Shown here: one piece after another, positions 32,689 to 53,995 of the stretch | How positions within the stretch are numbered: position 1 is the stretch's first letter | How the letters are laid out: each line of letters begins with the position of its first letter | NCBI GenBank assembly: GCA_028691835.1 | Contig: JAQUYN010000007.1 | Coordinates: forward strand, 1-53,995 | Source of the DNA: Alphaproteobacteria bacterium | GTDB taxonomy: Bacteria; Pseudomonadota; Alphaproteobacteria; UBA9219 | Length of the DNA: 53,995 nucleotides | Direction of reading: 5' to 3' | The notes under the pieces: generated by a model | The model's input: the letters and a program-made list of their open reading frames with translations, nothing else | What the model was told of the DNA's origin: nothing | The model's database searches: none | Made by a program: the position numbers and the translations under genes

Positions 32689-32723
32689 TCACCGGGGTTA
32701 CGCACTGTGAAGCTGCCTGCCAT

Positions 32724-32924
32724 ATGGGTTGATACCGGTGATAAACATAAAGGACTCGTCATCGCGAGGCCCCTTCTTCAGGGGCCGTGGCGATCCATCT
32801 CCTACTATTTCAACATGGGCCTACGTTGAAAATGCGGGAGATGGATGGCCTCGTCGGCCAATAGGCCTCCTCGCAATGACACCGTTCTTATTTTTATCAG
32901 TGTGTTAAACCCATAACTCGGGTT
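32724..32924. mobile_element. MITE, copy 1 (left end truncated)
   Basis: About 201 bp nearly identical to the intact copy at 51919-52129, with three substitutions seen in the interior. The right terminal inverted repeat AACCCATAACTCGGGTT (32908-32924) is complete. The left end retains only ATGGGTT (32724-32730), so about 10 bp are lost. The interior is highly palindromic: GAGGCCCC...GGGGCC, CCATCTCC...GGAGATGG and GGCCTCGTCGGCC, and it includes the GTCATCGCGAGG / CCTCGCAATGAC pair seen in many bacterial REP-type repeats. No transposase is encoded. Confidence 0.85.
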
Positions 32925-48661: not shown

Positions 48662-49873
48662 TTACTTTGATTTGGCAAGTTTTTTAAGCGAGTTGGCATA
48701 GATACGGGCGATTGGCGGCCAGTCCCAAGAAGTCAGCGCGAACTCGGCCAGAGCATCTTGTGGTTTCTTAAGTGGAAGAGGAGAGGGGAAGACCTTGAGC
48801 TTTTCGAACCATACCGCAGCTGTGCGTTCGCTATTGTCGGGGAAAACATCTGCAATATGTAAATGTGGCATGGCCATAATGTTGCCTTGCGCCGTGGCAG
48901 GACTGCAAAGGACGGGAAGGCCGCAGGCCATCGCTTCTTGAATCACAAGGGGGAAACCCTCTCCATAACTGGGGATCAAAAGAAGATCGGCGGCTTGATA
49001 CAGCTCGGCAAGGGCTTGGCCTTTGCGGTTTTTGAGGACATGAACGTTTGGCAACAACCATTTATCGGGATCTATTTTTCCACTTCCAGCCAGCCAGAAA
49101 CGCCATTCGGGAAACATTGTGGCTAGACGGCGGATGACATCAAGGCCTTTCTTTTCTACAAAACGGCCCACAAAAAGCAAAACAGGCTGTTCAGCTTTTA
49201 AAGCAAATTGTTGGCGCAAAAAGCGACGATTTTCGGCAATGGGAGGATGAAAAACGCGAATATCGACTCCGTTCGGAATCACCTTAATGGGGCGTGTAAA
49301 ATTAACGCGGCGATAATAGTCTTCGGCTACGCGATCACTGATGAAAATGACCTCATCGGCGAGTCGGAGCATGTGCGATGTAATCAGTTTGTCGGCGAGA
49401 TGCATAATCCAGCGGAAAAGCGGGTTGCTATAAGGAATGGGGGCGATGTGCTGTGCAATCATAATGGGCTTTTTGGCTCTTCGCGCCGTCCAGAAGGCTA
49501 AGATATTTCCGAGATAGAGCGTATCGTGCAGCCAAAGGACGTCAGCGTTTTTGACAGTCTTTGATAGAACGCGCAGACTTTTGTATCCCCAAACAGGCCA
49601 AGGGAGGCCCAATGCTTTTTCTGCCACATTGCATGTTCGCATAGGAATCGTTGTCAGGCCTTCGACCAACGGGGTTGGGTCACAATCGCTCGACAGCCAA
49701 GAAAAATGTAGAGAGTCATCGCTGATAATTTCGCGGATTAGCCGTTCAGCAACGAGTTCAATGCCGCCACCATGCGCACCAAAGAAATGCGTGACAACGA
49801 CAACTTCAATTGGGGCTTCATTTTTAGCCTTCGTTATTCGTTTTTTTACAGGACGTTCGATTGCCGCCGTCAT
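48662..49873 (-). CDS. GT4 family glycosyltransferase
   Basis: A 403-aa GT-B fold glycosyltransferase. The N-terminal acceptor domain opens with IEVVVVTHFFGAHGGGIELV. The C-terminal donor domain has 'LLFVGRFVEKKGLDVIRRLA', FWLAGSG, then ADLLLIPSYGEGFPLVIQEA (E-x7-E motif) and MACGLPVLCSP. No membrane segment. Its ATG overlaps the stop of the oxidoreductase gene by 4 nt, so the two are translationally coupled. Probably acts in capsule, LPS or other exopolysaccharide assembly; the sugar is unknown. Confidence 0.9.
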   Translation of the reverse strand: MTAAIERPVKKRITKAKNEAPIEVVVVTHFFGAHGGGIELVAERLIREIISDDSLHFSWLSSDCDPTPLVEGLTTIPMRTCNVAEKALGLPWPVWGYKSLRVLSKTVKNADVLWLHDTLYLGNILAFWTARRAKKPIMIAQHIAPIPYSNPLFRWIMHLADKLITSHMLRLADEVIFISDRVAEDYYRRVNFTRPIKVIPNGVDIRVFHPPIAENRRFLRQQFALKAEQPVLLFVGRFVEKKGLDVIRRLATMFPEWRFWLAGSGKIDPDKWLLPNVHVLKNRKGQALAELYQAADLLLIPSYGEGFPLVIQEAMACGLPVLCSPATAQGNIMAMPHLHIADVFPDNSERTAAVWFEKLKVFPSPLPLKKPQDALAEFALTSWDWPPIARIYANSLKKLAKSK

Positions 49874-50925
49874 CCTTCATTTCTTTCGTTCAAGGTTTTT
49901 ATCGCTGTTTGCTGTTGGTTTAGCACTGCTACAGCCTTTTCCCATCCTATTTTTTCATCCGGTTCTTTTGTGTGGATGCTCTGTTCAAAGCGCTTAATCA
50001 CTTCGTCGTTGCCATAATCTAGCCGCCCTGTCAGGAAAGCAAGGCCATTTGGCACGTGTCCCCAAAGATGTTGCGCCGTTGTTGAAAGGCTTGTTCTAAT
50101 CATAGAGATAGCATTGTGGGGGCTGCTCTGTGGTGTGCGAATATAGATGTCCCGAAGGAGATCACAAATTCCTATAGCTTTGTCTCCAACAGCGTAGAGA
50201 AACCATTCTTGTACTGGCGAATCATAGATACATTCGATTCTGAAAGAAACAGAGGCTTCGTCTTGATAAGCGAGGTGGACCAGCCGGGGCGTTTCCTTTT
50301 GCTCTCCCTTTGTCTTATAGCTGTTTTTAAGGGTCAGTGCGCCATTGGCTAGATCGTTTATTAAATAGAAATGGTGCGGACTATCATCAAAAAAAGCGCC
50401 TAATGGCAGCGTTTCAATCCATTTTGACGCACGCTTTGCGCTGTTACCCTTATATCTAAGCTCGACATGATGTAACGCGCCGAGGCGGCCTTGTTGTAAA
50501 TCGGCGTGAAGTTTTTGAACGCTACGACAAAAGCGCAAGTTGTGTACAACAGCGAGAGTCGTGTTGGCCTGTGTGGCGGCCAGTCCTAATTCTCTGCCTT
50601 CTTTTGGTGTGAGGGCAAAAGGCTTTTCTGTGAGGACATGCTTGCCTTTGGATAAGGCGGATGCGATAAGGGCGCCGCGTTTCTGAACTGGGGTGCAAAG
50701 GAGTAAGGCGTCGATTGAGTCCGTCCATGTTACTGATTCAAACGAGTCTGTTTGTGCATAAAAGGGGAGGGACCATTTTTTGGCGACAGCGGCGGCGCGG
50801 CCTTCATGCCGGTCAATGACGCCCGTCAGCGCCAGTGCAGGTTGACGTAGAATCGACGGAATGTGGCGCTGCGTGGCAACCCAACCGAGACCCATAATGC
50901 CAATGCGGAGTGGTGAGCGCAGCAT
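49870..50925 (-). CDS. Gfo/Idh/MocA family oxidoreductase
   Basis: A 351-aa NAD(P)-dependent sugar-type dehydrogenase. The Rossmann start is LRIGIMGLGWVATQRHIPSI, then VIDRHEGRAAAVAKKW. The conserved EKP motif is in GKHVLTEKPFALTPKEGREL, and the substrate domain has 'AVVHNLRFCRSVQKLHADLQ'. The Lys of EKP, used in catalysis, is present. Such enzymes often make modified nucleotide sugars. It sits 11 nt after the AAA+ ATPase gene and overlaps the GT4 gene, so all are likely one transcript. Confidence 0.9.
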   Translation of the reverse strand: MLRSPLRIGIMGLGWVATQRHIPSILRQPALALTGVIDRHEGRAAAVAKKWSLPFYAQTDSFESVTWTDSIDALLLCTPVQKRGALIASALSKGKHVLTEKPFALTPKEGRELGLAATQANTTLAVVHNLRFCRSVQKLHADLQQGRLGALHHVELRYKGNSAKRASKWIETLPLGAFFDDSPHHFYLINDLANGALTLKNSYKTKGEQKETPRLVHLAYQDEASVSFRIECIYDSPVQEWFLYAVGDKAIGICDLLRDIYIRTPQSSPHNAISMIRTSLSTTAQHLWGHVPNGLAFLTGRLDYGNDEVIKRFEQSIHTKEPDEKIGWEKAVAVLNQQQTAIKTLNERNEG

Positions 50926-50936
50926 GACCGAAAAGC

Positions 50937-51812
50937 CTAAATAGCCATGTGGCTAATGCCAGCTTCACCCGCGATGGCAATTGAAATGGACTCATCGTCA
51001 AGTTCCGTTGTGACCCCTTTCATTGTTGCATGAGCGCAGGCTTGGTCGAGACAGATAATCGATTTATCCGGGTTATTGCGATTGCGAATATAGCGATCCG
51101 TTAAAACAACAATGCGTTTAATGGCGCGATCCGATATCCCAAATCCATAATGGTCTTCAAAGTTCTTTTTCATGTTTTGCAGAATTGTAATGGTCATTTC
51201 CACAGAAGGAACATCAAGGTCGATTTTCTGGAAACGGCGATCAATAGCGGGTTCTAACTTGACATAATCATCATATTCTTCACGCGTGGTGGCTCCGATA
51301 ACAAGGAGATCTCCGTTGGTCAGGAAGGGCTTGAGCAAATCGGCGATGCCGCTATAGCTTGATGTTTTAAAGGAGATCATAAGCTGATGGATTTCATCGA
51401 TGCAAAAGATAATGGGCGGGAAAAGGCCGCAGGCATTGCGTTCTGCGACGCCTTTGATGATCGGGATCAGCCGACCTTCAAGTTCAGCTCGTGATGATGA
51501 TCCCGCGCCGATCATTGACATTTCAAGTTCGATAACGCGGGCGCCTTGTAAAAGCTTGGGGACTTTGTTGGCGTTGATAAGTTGGGCTAGGCCTATAAAC
51601 AGGGCCGTTTTACCTACGCCAGCAGGCCCCAATAACATCACGTTCTTGCGTAAGCGTTGAAGCAGAACAAGCGTCAAATGTTCCAGTTCTTTATCACGCC
51701 CGGTGATGGGATCAAACTTTCCAGCAAGATCTTGAGCGGTAAAATCACGTGTATAGCGGTGAATGAGGTCATTAAGCGTATCGTCGCTGACATGGAAAGA
51801 AAGGCTGGTCAT
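50937..51812 (-). CDS. Single-module ClpA/ClpB-like AAA+ ATPase
   Basis: A 291-aa protein equivalent to the first AAA+ module (D1) of ClpA/ClpB, without the N-domain, M-domain or D2. 'DLAGKFDPITGRDKELEHLT' is the Clp D1 entry. Walker A is MLLGPAGVGKTALFIGLAQL, Walker B IIFCIDEIHQL, sensor 1 VIGATTREEYDDY, and the arginine finger is in EPAIDRRFQKIDL. The pore loop that reads K-Y-R-G in Clp proteins is GAGSSSRAELEG here: the aromatic is replaced by Ser with a 2-residue insertion, so substrate threading is doubtful. ATG 51812 is chosen; TTG 51842 is in frame. Next to the aconitase-like gene, separated by a MITE. Function unknown. Confidence 0.88.
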   Translation of the reverse strand: MTSLSFHVSDDTLNDLIHRYTRDFTAQDLAGKFDPITGRDKELEHLTLVLLQRLRKNVMLLGPAGVGKTALFIGLAQLINANKVPKLLQGARVIELEMSMIGAGSSSRAELEGRLIPIIKGVAERNACGLFPPIIFCIDEIHQLMISFKTSSYSGIADLLKPFLTNGDLLVIGATTREEYDDYVKLEPAIDRRFQKIDLDVPSVEMTITILQNMKKNFEDHYGFGISDRAIKRIVVLTDRYIRNRNNPDKSIICLDQACAHATMKGVTTELDDESISIAIAGEAGISHMAI

Positions 51813-51918
51813 TCGCTGTTCCAAAATATGGGTTGTCGACAAACGTCTATCATTAAAGAATCTTGCGTGTTGCTGAGTATTTTGTCACGTGTTGTTTCAA
51901 ACCGCTAGACCCTTTAAT

Positions 51919-52129
51919 AACCCGAGTTATGGGTTGATACCGGTGATAAACATAAAGGACTCGTCATCGCGAGGCCCCTTCTTCAGGGGCCGTGGCGATC
52001 CATCTCCTACTGTTTCAACATGGACCTACGTTGAAAATGCGGGATATGGATGGCCTCGTCGGCCAATAGGCCTCCTCGCAATGACACCGTTCTTATTTTT
52101 ATCAGTGTGTTAAACCCATAACTCGGGTT
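51919..52129. mobile_element. MITE, copy 2 (intact, 211 bp, TTAAT target duplication)
   Basis: Perfect 17-bp terminal inverted repeats, AACCCGAGTTATGGGTT (51919-51935) and AACCCATAACTCGGGTT (52113-52129), are flanked by direct repeats TTAAT at 51914-51918 and 52130-52134. The interior is about 98% identical to copy 1 at 32724-32924 and highly self-complementary. It has no coding capacity, so it must have been mobilised by a transposase elsewhere. It lies in the 395-bp gap between the aconitase-like and AAA+ genes; no other gene is visible in that gap. Confidence 0.92.
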
Positions 52130-52207
52130 TTAATATGGTCCAACCTTGCAGAAACGGGTTTGTAAAGCAGGTTATGAATGTCCGTGGTGAACGATGATCC
52201 TTTTTGA

Positions 52208-53995
52208 CTAAAGAAGCGAACGAAGAGTGGCCGCCCAAATCGACCCATTATTTAGCATTTCAAGCCCTTCAGTTGTTCTGATGTCGCAATGGACCATGTA
52301 GCGCTCGACAGTGTCCTTGTGTTCGATGGTCATCATGGCTTCGCATGGAGGCCTTCCCATTTCTTGAATGCCGGCAAAGCTCAAGGTTTCTTCGCCTGTC
52401 AGCTTTAGATCGCTGATGGAAACGCCCTGCTTGATTCGAAGGGGGAGGACCCCAAGACGGATAAGGTTTATTCGGAACATCGGATCAAAGCTCTCAGCGA
52501 TCACGACACGTATGTTTAGGAAGCGTATGACTTTTGCGGCCCAATCTTGTCCCAATCCACGACCAAAATCTTTCCCGGCTATGATGGTGTAGGGCGTCCC
52601 TTCGCGTTGATAGCGCTCTGTGGCATCAAAGATTGTCATCTGTGATTTTGTCGTGGCGTGAATAGTTTCTCCTGTGCTGGACGAATCGTTCGGCAGTAAG
52701 GCGTTTTTGAGCGATGGGTGCGAGAAGGCCCCGCGCACCATAACCTCATAGTTGCCTGTTTTTGTTTCATAGGTCAAAAATGTTTCTGGCGGTACATTTC
52801 GTGCCATGAGGTAATAGCCTGCTGGGCTGTTGGGGGCGATGGGGCCATAGGGAGCGATGGCAGAAGCTTCTATGTTGTCACCGAATAAGGCCAAGACTCT
52901 TGCATTTTTGATGTTTTGAGCGCGTTGGGTTTTCTTGGCGTTGTAGCCATCAAGAATGGGCGGCTTCCTTACAACGCAAGATTGATCATTCCACGCAAAT
53001 GTTGGCTCTGATGGTTCTGGCGTTTGTTCCCATGCTGTTGAGCCAGAATAAAGCGTTTCTTTAAGCGTTGCATAAAGGGCAGCAAAGGGTGAGGCTTCAT
53101 AGACGGCATTGATTTCTGCCATTGTCGGCCACAATTCTTTAAGAAGGATAGATTTTCCGTCTTTATTGTTGCCGAGAGGTTTTGTGTTGATGTCTAATAA
53201 AATTGATCCCGCAAGAGCATAGGCAATAACAAGAGGTGGCGTGGCAATAAATTTTGCGTATTCAACGGTGTCAATTTCGGGAATCCCGAGTTGAGGCGCC
53301 GATGTGATCGAACATACTGTCAGTTTGTTTTGTAAAATCTTTTTTTCAAGATCTTCGTTGATATGTGGTAATTTTTGAGCCGTCGTTTCTCCATTCAACG
53401 TGATAATAAATCCTATCGCTTCGAGGTCACGTTTCAACCCAGATTTTTCCAAGAAGAGTGCTGAAACGGGGCTCATATCATCAAAGAGAGCTCGCACCCA
53501 AGGCTTGACTTTGAGTCCCAAATGAGCCGCCCTGCGGGCAACAAGGCCCGCCAGAACAAGTTCATGTGGGTGGGTTGCGACTTCACGAGGGGACACAACG
53601 GCCAATGCAATATCCCCGTGTTTAATCGGAGCCAGTGGGTCGAGAAAACTCGTCGCGGACGGAAACTTTTTTTCAAAGGCCCCCGATGCTTCAGCGAGAG
53701 AGACGGGACGGTTAACCGAGTTTGGGCCGCCTAGACAGGAGCGGATTGAGTCGAGAGCCAATTCGGCAGCGACAGTGAACGTTGGTTCATGTTGCACATC
53801 GTGGGGCCAGTTCTCGCGCCACAACCCTTGGGCTTTTGCATAGGCCTCAACGAGGGCAATGTGTTGCTCGTCCTGTCCGATTAAGGCTAGGTGAGTTAAT
53901 GTCGTACTATCAATTGGAAAATAACAACATAAGGCTCCCGTTTTATAAATCATGCGGGCGATGATGGCGCGATCAGGTACAGACAAGTGATCAAG
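52208..53995 (-). CDS. Aconitase-family protein lacking Fe-S and catalytic residues (5' end outside window)
   Basis: 595 codons aligned by eye with the C-terminal two thirds of AcnA/IRP-type aconitase; the frame continues past 53995, so the gene is partial. Residues are numbered from TTG 53986. Conserved landmarks: LTHLALIGQDEQHIALVEAY AKAQGLW, 'ATPPLVIAYALAGSILLDIN', ELWPTMAEI, 'NYEVMVRGAF' and 'IRVVIAESFDPMFRINLIRL'. Missing: the first cluster Cys (SCTNTSNP in AcnA, here VVSPREVATHP at 130-140); the C-T-T-C pair (here TLNGETTAQ at 196-204); the GNRNFEGR arginines (here APQLGIPE); DHISPAG (here SAIAPYG); and the catalytic S-S-R loop (GSGSSRDW, here GRGLGQDW at 475-482). It cannot hold the cluster or catalyse aconitase chemistry. 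No frameshift or stop is present. Confidence 0.88.
   Translation of the reverse strand, partial: LDHLSVPDRAIIARMIYKTGALCCYFPIDSTTLTHLALIGQDEQHIALVEAYAKAQGLWRENWPHDVQHEPTFTVAAELALDSIRSCLGGPNSVNRPVSLAEASGAFEKKFPSATSFLDPLAPIKHGDIALAVVSPREVATHPHELVLAGLVARRAAHLGLKVKPWVRALFDDMSPVSALFLEKSGLKRDLEAIGFIITLNGETTAQKLPHINEDLEKKILQNKLTVCSITSAPQLGIPEIDTVEYAKFIATPPLVIAYALAGSILLDINTKPLGNNKDGKSILLKELWPTMAEINAVYEASPFAALYATLKETLYSGSTAWEQTPEPSEPTFAWNDQSCVVRKPPILDGYNAKKTQRAQNIKNARVLALFGDNIEASAIAPYGPIAPNSPAGYYLMARNVPPETFLTYETKTGNYEVMVRGAFSHPSLKNALLPNDSSSTGETIHATTKSQMTIFDATERYQREGTPYTIIAGKDFGRGLGQDWAAKVIRFLNIRVVIAESFDPMFRINLIRLGVLPLRIKQGVSISDLKLTGEETLSFAGIQEMGRPPCEAMMTIEHKDTVERYMVHCDIRTTEGLEMLNNGSIWAATLRSLL

Follow-up and report, generated by a model that had tools for sequence, protein, structure and literature searches.

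Can an aconitase that has lost its active site still be worth keeping? The question is raised by the right-hand end of a 53,995-nucleotide alphaproteobacterial sequence (the window), where a minus-strand reading frame stays open for 595 codons from 53995 to its stop at 52208 and runs off the end. The original prediction, made from the letters alone, described an AcnA-like frame of about 595 codons with several quoted scaffold strings, and held that selection keeps the fold for a non-enzymatic job; both the frame and the strings are present as described. Profile searches recover the two aconitase domains in the window protein (Aconitase, PF00330, 1.2e-21; Aconitase_C, PF00694, 9.4e-23). Its best NCBIfam match is AcnA (PRK09277) at 458 bits, under the 686-bit cut-off of that model, and the 945-bit equivalog cut-off of TIGR01341 is reached neither by the 595-residue fragment (426.5 bits) nor by the full-length homologue L076 (467 bits). 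The N-terminal 271 codons form the end of another contig of the same genome (C143, L001), which carries DUF1036, acyltransferase and MiaB genes behind them. By comparison with G005 about 11 codons are absent between the two contig ends, at which we found no obvious foreign sequence. The DUF1036-acn order at the end of C143 is the one seen in relatives, G005 with its unbroken locus among them, so the gene was apparently split in assembly.

Table 1. Positions of the pseudo-aconitase, its altered segments and the neighbouring genes in the window
Feature	Position	Strand	Remark
Last 595 codons of the pseudo-aconitase, with the stop	52208..53995	-	AcnA homologue without active site
SPREVATHPHE	53561..53593	-	replaces the SCTNTSNPxVM cluster-ligand segment (Cys358 of mitochondrial aconitase)
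IITLNGETTAQ	53375..53407	-	replaces the CTTC ligand segment (Cys421/Cys424), shortened
SITSAPQLGIPE	53276..53311	-	replaces SGNRNFEGR (substrate-binding Asn/Arg)
EASAIAPYG	52844..52870	-	replaces TTDHISPAG
GRGLGQDW	52541..52564	-	replaces the catalytic GTGSSRDW Ser/Arg loop
Single-domain ClpB/ClpV D1-like AAA+ ATPase	50937..51842	-	next gene downstream of acn
GFO/IDH/MocA oxidoreductase	49870..50925	-	conserved neighbour where the contig extends, also in G012
GT4 glycosyltransferase	48662..49873	-	conserved neighbour where the contig extends, also in G012

Alignment bears out the proposed loss of the SCTNTS, CTTC, GNRNFEGR, DHISPAG and GSGSSRDW segments, all of the replacements being real, and the three cluster cysteines are gone and not merely shifted, which rules out cysteines that are displaced but present. 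The N-terminal half is likewise without catalytic residues, with VIDHS changed to VMAPS, GICHQ to GPSNH and GTDSHT to GTDPYF. For a read-out of the active site we used 19 catalytic or [4Fe-4S] positions in an alignment that includes 11 normal AcnA proteins; the positions were assigned by motif from the known ligands and catalytic residues of mitochondrial aconitase. Asp165 is the only one of the 19 retained in the window protein, the sole survivor from the Asp/His pairs, NRNFEGR, Ser642-Ser643-Arg644 and Arg580, and at Cys358, Cys421 and Cys424 the protein has Arg, Glu and a gap, respectively. The erasure of the active site is a direct observation.

The cysteine loss is not confined to this genome, as homologues that share it are found in six others. 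Pseudo-aconitases occur in all six genomes of the genus (that of the window, G000, and five more) and in G013 of a sister genus, and their frames are full-length or limited only by a contig end, with no break in any of the seven; this agreement rules out an assembly error or single-genome artefact. The six other members are 38-41% identical to the window protein over its C-terminal part, and most pairs within the genus share 33-41% protein identity. We found no second AcnA-type gene in the pseudo-aconitase genomes. In G002 and G003 the other PF00330 matches have the size of LeuC, and in G003 LeuB adjoins; a search of the window's own genome for a normal acnA returned the pseudo-aconitase as the sole AcnA-type gene. 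The gene is thus observed as a single copy, and a paralogue beside a normal acnA is ruled out for the genus.

Outside these genomes, a contig scan with the window protein alone as query gave no match, and a scan with the alignment gave L076 and 79 other loci among the matches listed. Further loss of the motif set could not be established in those 79 loci, a few of which miss one motif pattern through incomplete sequence or a variant, and distant pseudo-aconitases could escape such a pattern-based scan of the listed matches. The viral contigs scanned contained no pseudo-aconitase. L076 lies on contig WREW01000012.1 (35,050 bp) of Alphaproteobacteria bacterium isolate Lab288P4bin16, and its match is the same as that of G003. 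By its name, this isolate is presumably a metagenome-assembled genome (MAG) of a termite-gut study. That study reports 23 alphaproteobacterial MAGs from the guts of higher termites (PMC7024585). The clade probably consists of insect-gut Alphaproteobacteria. In a class-wide survey of 385 genomes the low-scoring PF00330 cases were inspected and, with the exception of G346, proved to be AcnB, aconitases of other types or pieces of genes on contig fragments; the low-scoring 890-residue match of G008 and the low scorers of G105, G221, G315 and G392 were rejected as AcnB proteins with their cysteines. One aconitase-type protein (L192, G265:C55) has IGSSANPGF at the usual SCTN cysteine segment, where one ligand cysteine is apparently missing.

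Comparison between the members indicates how the old active site is now treated. A complete cysteine set is found in none of the seven, and the position of Cys358 is variously R, E, P, A, H, S or C. In six members the ancestral residue persists in 7% of catalytic cells, whereas the figure for the other cells that are invariant in the family is 47%. The catalytic columns also show less pairwise identity than family-invariant columns drawn at random, a value this low being reached in 26 of 20,000 draws. Because the replacements differ between members, the former pocket looks unconstrained, and the extra variability of the active-site columns argues against new chemistry in the same place; the non-enzymatic status of the protein is inferred from this erased and variable pocket. 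Conservation is found elsewhere, and also within some of the altered segments. Of the 118 columns that are invariant among the pseudo-aconitases compared, 21 depart from the normal AcnA consensus, and these include a His and a Glu at the old SCTNTSNPxV segment (the first His and the Glu of SPREVATHPHE are invariant in 7/7 pseudo-aconitases) and an Arg at position 843 (G010 numbering). The former SRDW loop reads Q[DE]W in six of the seven and KEW in the other. The inter-domain cleft might accordingly have been remodelled for a new ligand-binding or enzymatic function that uses such derived residues, namely HPxE (for SCTNTSNPxV), T745, H359, Q[DE]W (for SRDW) and R843, all in G010 numbering. We consider this quite unlikely: the 21 derived residues are invariant in the members compared and several lie at former active-site segments, but the catalytic and cluster positions as a whole vary more than other family-invariant columns, and in the CTTC and NRNFEGR regions the sequence is shorter or the structural model has low confidence.

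To ask how the protein evolves we compared G004 with G005, for which acn has a dN/dS of 0.177 (dN 0.107, dS 0.60; 857 codons), even along the gene save for one interval at 0.45. For the same pair the neighbouring MocA oxidoreductase and glycosyltransferase genes give 0.179 and 0.147, values like that of acn, and the AAA+ gene is under stricter constraint (0.026). Neutral simulation at 0.60 per site produced a mean of 24 stops and a minimum of 10 in 500 runs. A pseudogene that decays after loss of the Krebs cycle would account for how quickly the proteins have diverged in the genus (33-41% identity between most pairs) and for the missing pathway partners, but it would leave unexplained seven open frames, a gene-wide dN/dS of 0.18 that is nowhere near 1, and the absence of the roughly 24 stops expected under neutrality. 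We regard decay as extremely unlikely, and for the G004/G005 pair it is excluded for practical purposes. Barely credible, too, is the idea that only the open frame matters, through transcriptional or translational coupling to the AAA gene; the gap between acn and AAA is indeed short or overlapping in G003 and G012, but it is about 70 nucleotides in G004 and about 365 in the window, the amino acid sequence is selected throughout, and the invariant residues span the protein. Selection on the protein is thus observed, and the claim that it maintains the fold is supported by the dN/dS of 0.18, by the homologues in six other genomes and by profile and model. That the pseudo-aconitase is a selected pseudoenzyme appears very probable, with the proviso that the absence of catalysis is inferred.

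The metabolic setting changes along with the protein. Neither citrate synthase (PF00285) nor the E1 component of 2-oxoglutarate dehydrogenase (OGDH; PF16870) was found in the six genus members, G013 and G012, and isocitrate dehydrogenase gave no IDH-type match in these genomes, only matches of LeuB strength; the searches did not cover monomeric isocitrate dehydrogenase or Re-citrate synthase. Several of the genomes are incomplete (62-80%), but G003 is rated 100% complete, so the gaps are more than missing sequence and the co-loss of the pathway is a matter of observation. Within the family, complete and motif-intact AcnA is found only in genomes with citrate synthase, the partial AcnA of G021 (82% complete) remaining unclear, and three relatives without citrate synthase (G007, G019 and G020) have no AcnA whatsoever. 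G006, rated 99% complete, has citrate synthase and no OGDH E1, and gave no AcnA-type match, only a LeuC-sized one.

The gene itself has not moved. The DUF1036 gene divergent upstream and the single-domain AAA+ ATPase downstream also flank the intact acnA of G010, so the locus is observably ancestral. In the tree of homologues, built without G346 (a long branch) and without a Reyranella row, the proteins with cysteine loss lie on one side of a 100/100 branch that parts them from AcnA-like proteins, with G012 and then G010 as the next branches; long branches leave the root and the inner order of the pseudo-aconitase clade unsure. The AcnA of G012 (L010, G012:C66; a sister genus) still has the three cysteines together with the Asp/His residues, but its motifs are altered (SCASTS, CATC, DQISPSG and GTPRDW, the last changing the catalytic Ser-Ser-Arg to Thr-Pro-Arg), and it is likely to be an intermediate or an altered enzyme. 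Since it retains the cysteines without the catalytic serine loop, it suggests, from one genome, that the loop was lost before the cluster. The 1.1-Mb genome of G346, which belongs to an alphaproteobacterial order other than that of the window, encodes an AcnA relic of 764 codons (L199, 865-3159; G346:C5:24771-27062) from which the ligand motifs are missing. The relic resembles the window protein over a 105-residue C-terminal stretch only, none of its kind was found in the nearest relatives searched, and it is probably an independent second pseudo-aconitase.

AlphaFold2 modelling of the 884-residue homologue L076 gave a pLDDT of 78.7 and a pTM of 0.82, with low confidence at the former CTTC and NRNFEGR segments. 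The closest structures to this model are an AcnA model (Z 48.9), cytosolic aconitase/IRP1 (46.0), the IRP1-RNA complex (41.7) and IRP2 (33.8), and the closed form (2b3x; Z 46.0, r.m.s.d. 4.2) matches it better than the open RNA-bound form (3snp; Z 41.7, r.m.s.d. 8.3). The model agrees with the profile scores that the fold is kept, as predicted; because its alignment consists mostly of normal aconitases, however, it shows that the protein is compatible with the AcnA/IRP1 fold and is no independent proof. Net charge is between -14 and -23 in six of the seven pseudo-aconitases, compared with -2 to -14 in normal AcnA, and since these six are more acidic than nearly all normal AcnA, general nucleic-acid binding is not favoured.

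The conserved neighbourhood offers another possible role. The adjacent AAA+ ATPase is a protein of about 290-300 residues that bears Walker motifs and is conserved nearly order-wide, and the pseudo-aconitase might be kept as its partner or adaptor, or as part of the acn-AAA-oxidoreductase-glycosyltransferase group, through a contact to which the catalytic site is irrelevant. In keeping with this, acn adjoins the AAA gene in the seven pseudo-aconitase genomes and in G012, G010, G027, G029 and G031, the AAA gene is highly conserved (dN/dS 0.03-0.08), and G007 and G020, which have neither the linkage nor citrate synthase, have lost acnA entirely. The same two genomes, however, retain the AAA gene without any AcnA, so the ATPase does not need it, and the linkage is documented in very few clades only, is confounded with phylogeny and is unsupported by interaction data; we think the partnership unlikely. 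Between acn and the AAA+ gene lies a 233-bp imperfect palindrome (51908-52140) with a copy at 32723-32924 that is 98.5% identical over 202 bp, and the two copies resemble a small mobile element or one of the REP/MITE type.

With moderate confidence, and without functional data, we favour a vertically inherited housekeeping AcnA that has become a pseudoenzyme kept for an ancestral non-catalytic role, a reading that includes an association with RNA or the degradosome. AcnA would have given up its aconitase chemistry at the time when the oxidative citrate branch disappeared, and purifying selection would now keep it for a non-catalytic role that it already had. The protein may serve post-transcriptional control as a client, either structural or associated with RNA; in the most specific form it would be the aconitase subunit of the degradosome, docked on RNase E, and cluster loss would fix it in an apo-like state. 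That it acts in the decay or the regulation of RNA is inferred, and in our judgment falls slightly short of an even chance; the RNase E degradosome specifically is a tentative proposal drawn by analogy, as docking has not been shown, and other RNA regulation is very unlikely. Apart from the AAA+ partnership and a new function in the cleft, the remaining probability lies with decay, retention of the frame alone or a role we have not thought of. In Caulobacter the RNase E degradosome includes aconitase, recognized by a site at residues 681-712 of RNase E (PMC4245959), and decay intermediates build up in an RNase E mutant to which PNPase, aconitase or RNase D cannot be recruited (PMC10412687). 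As Caulobacter belongs to the same class, a dead AcnA kept for docking would be a natural outcome, and RNA decay is the most specific candidate. The RNase E of G003 (798 residues; PF10150, 1.8e-100) has a long C-terminal scaffold ending in GGWW (GGWWRRL), but a similar scaffold is found on the RNase E of G007, which has no AcnA, so the presence of RNase E does not discriminate, and no aconitase-binding segment was identified by inspection or comparison of the divergent scaffolds. That a structural role in RNA decay outlived the chemistry and left AcnA as a permanently cluster-free protein of the degradosome or of RNA regulation, its steps seen in G010 (intact), G012 (loop-dead, with cysteines) and the genus (erased) and a similar outcome reached again in G346, is possible, though less likely than not.

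Moonlighting by bacterial aconitases is usually studied with the enzyme and its second function in one protein, which makes it hard to tell whether the second function alone would be worth keeping. The pseudo-aconitase amounts to evolution's own separation-of-function experiment, in which chemistry and pathway are gone and the protein is still selected, and it suggests that what these cells need from the protein is its second, non-catalytic function. Automated annotation may label these genes as aconitase and thereby ascribe to the organisms an enzyme that they probably do not have. To the original prediction the present analysis adds the N-terminal half and the clade-wide occurrence as a single copy; it also supplies dN/dS values, shows that the pathway was lost as well, and identifies a likely intermediate, a probably independent second case and a candidate role specific to the class. 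We found no description of a bacterial aconitase of this kind in the literature searched, coverage of which was partial.

Compared with AcnA (TIGR01341/PRK09277/PRK12881), the pseudo-aconitase is homologous over its full length and shares the predicted fold and the ancestral locus, but it scores below the cut-offs, has no cluster cysteines and lacks nearly all catalytic residues. The degradosome aconitase of Caulobacter comes from the same bacterial class, is of the same AcnA type and associates structurally with RNase E at a mapped site; it is, however, a Krebs-cycle enzyme, and for the pseudo-aconitase docking is not established. Cluster-free apo-AcnA of Mycobacterium tuberculosis binds and controls mRNA (PMC7527780), and cluster-free apo-AcnB of E. 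coli controls mRNAs (PMC4150767), but in both the cluster is reversible and the protein an active enzyme, whereas the ligands of the pseudo-aconitase are permanently lost. The nearest precedent is animal IRP2, which has neither cluster nor activity (PMC4056636). Like IRP1 and IRP2 (structural matches 2b3x, 3snp and 6vcd), the pseudo-aconitase has an aconitase fold without a cluster; it differs from them in being bacterial, in having no special closeness to IRP2 and no RNA-binding data, and in having arisen by loss in the sole AcnA of the cell and not in an extra copy.
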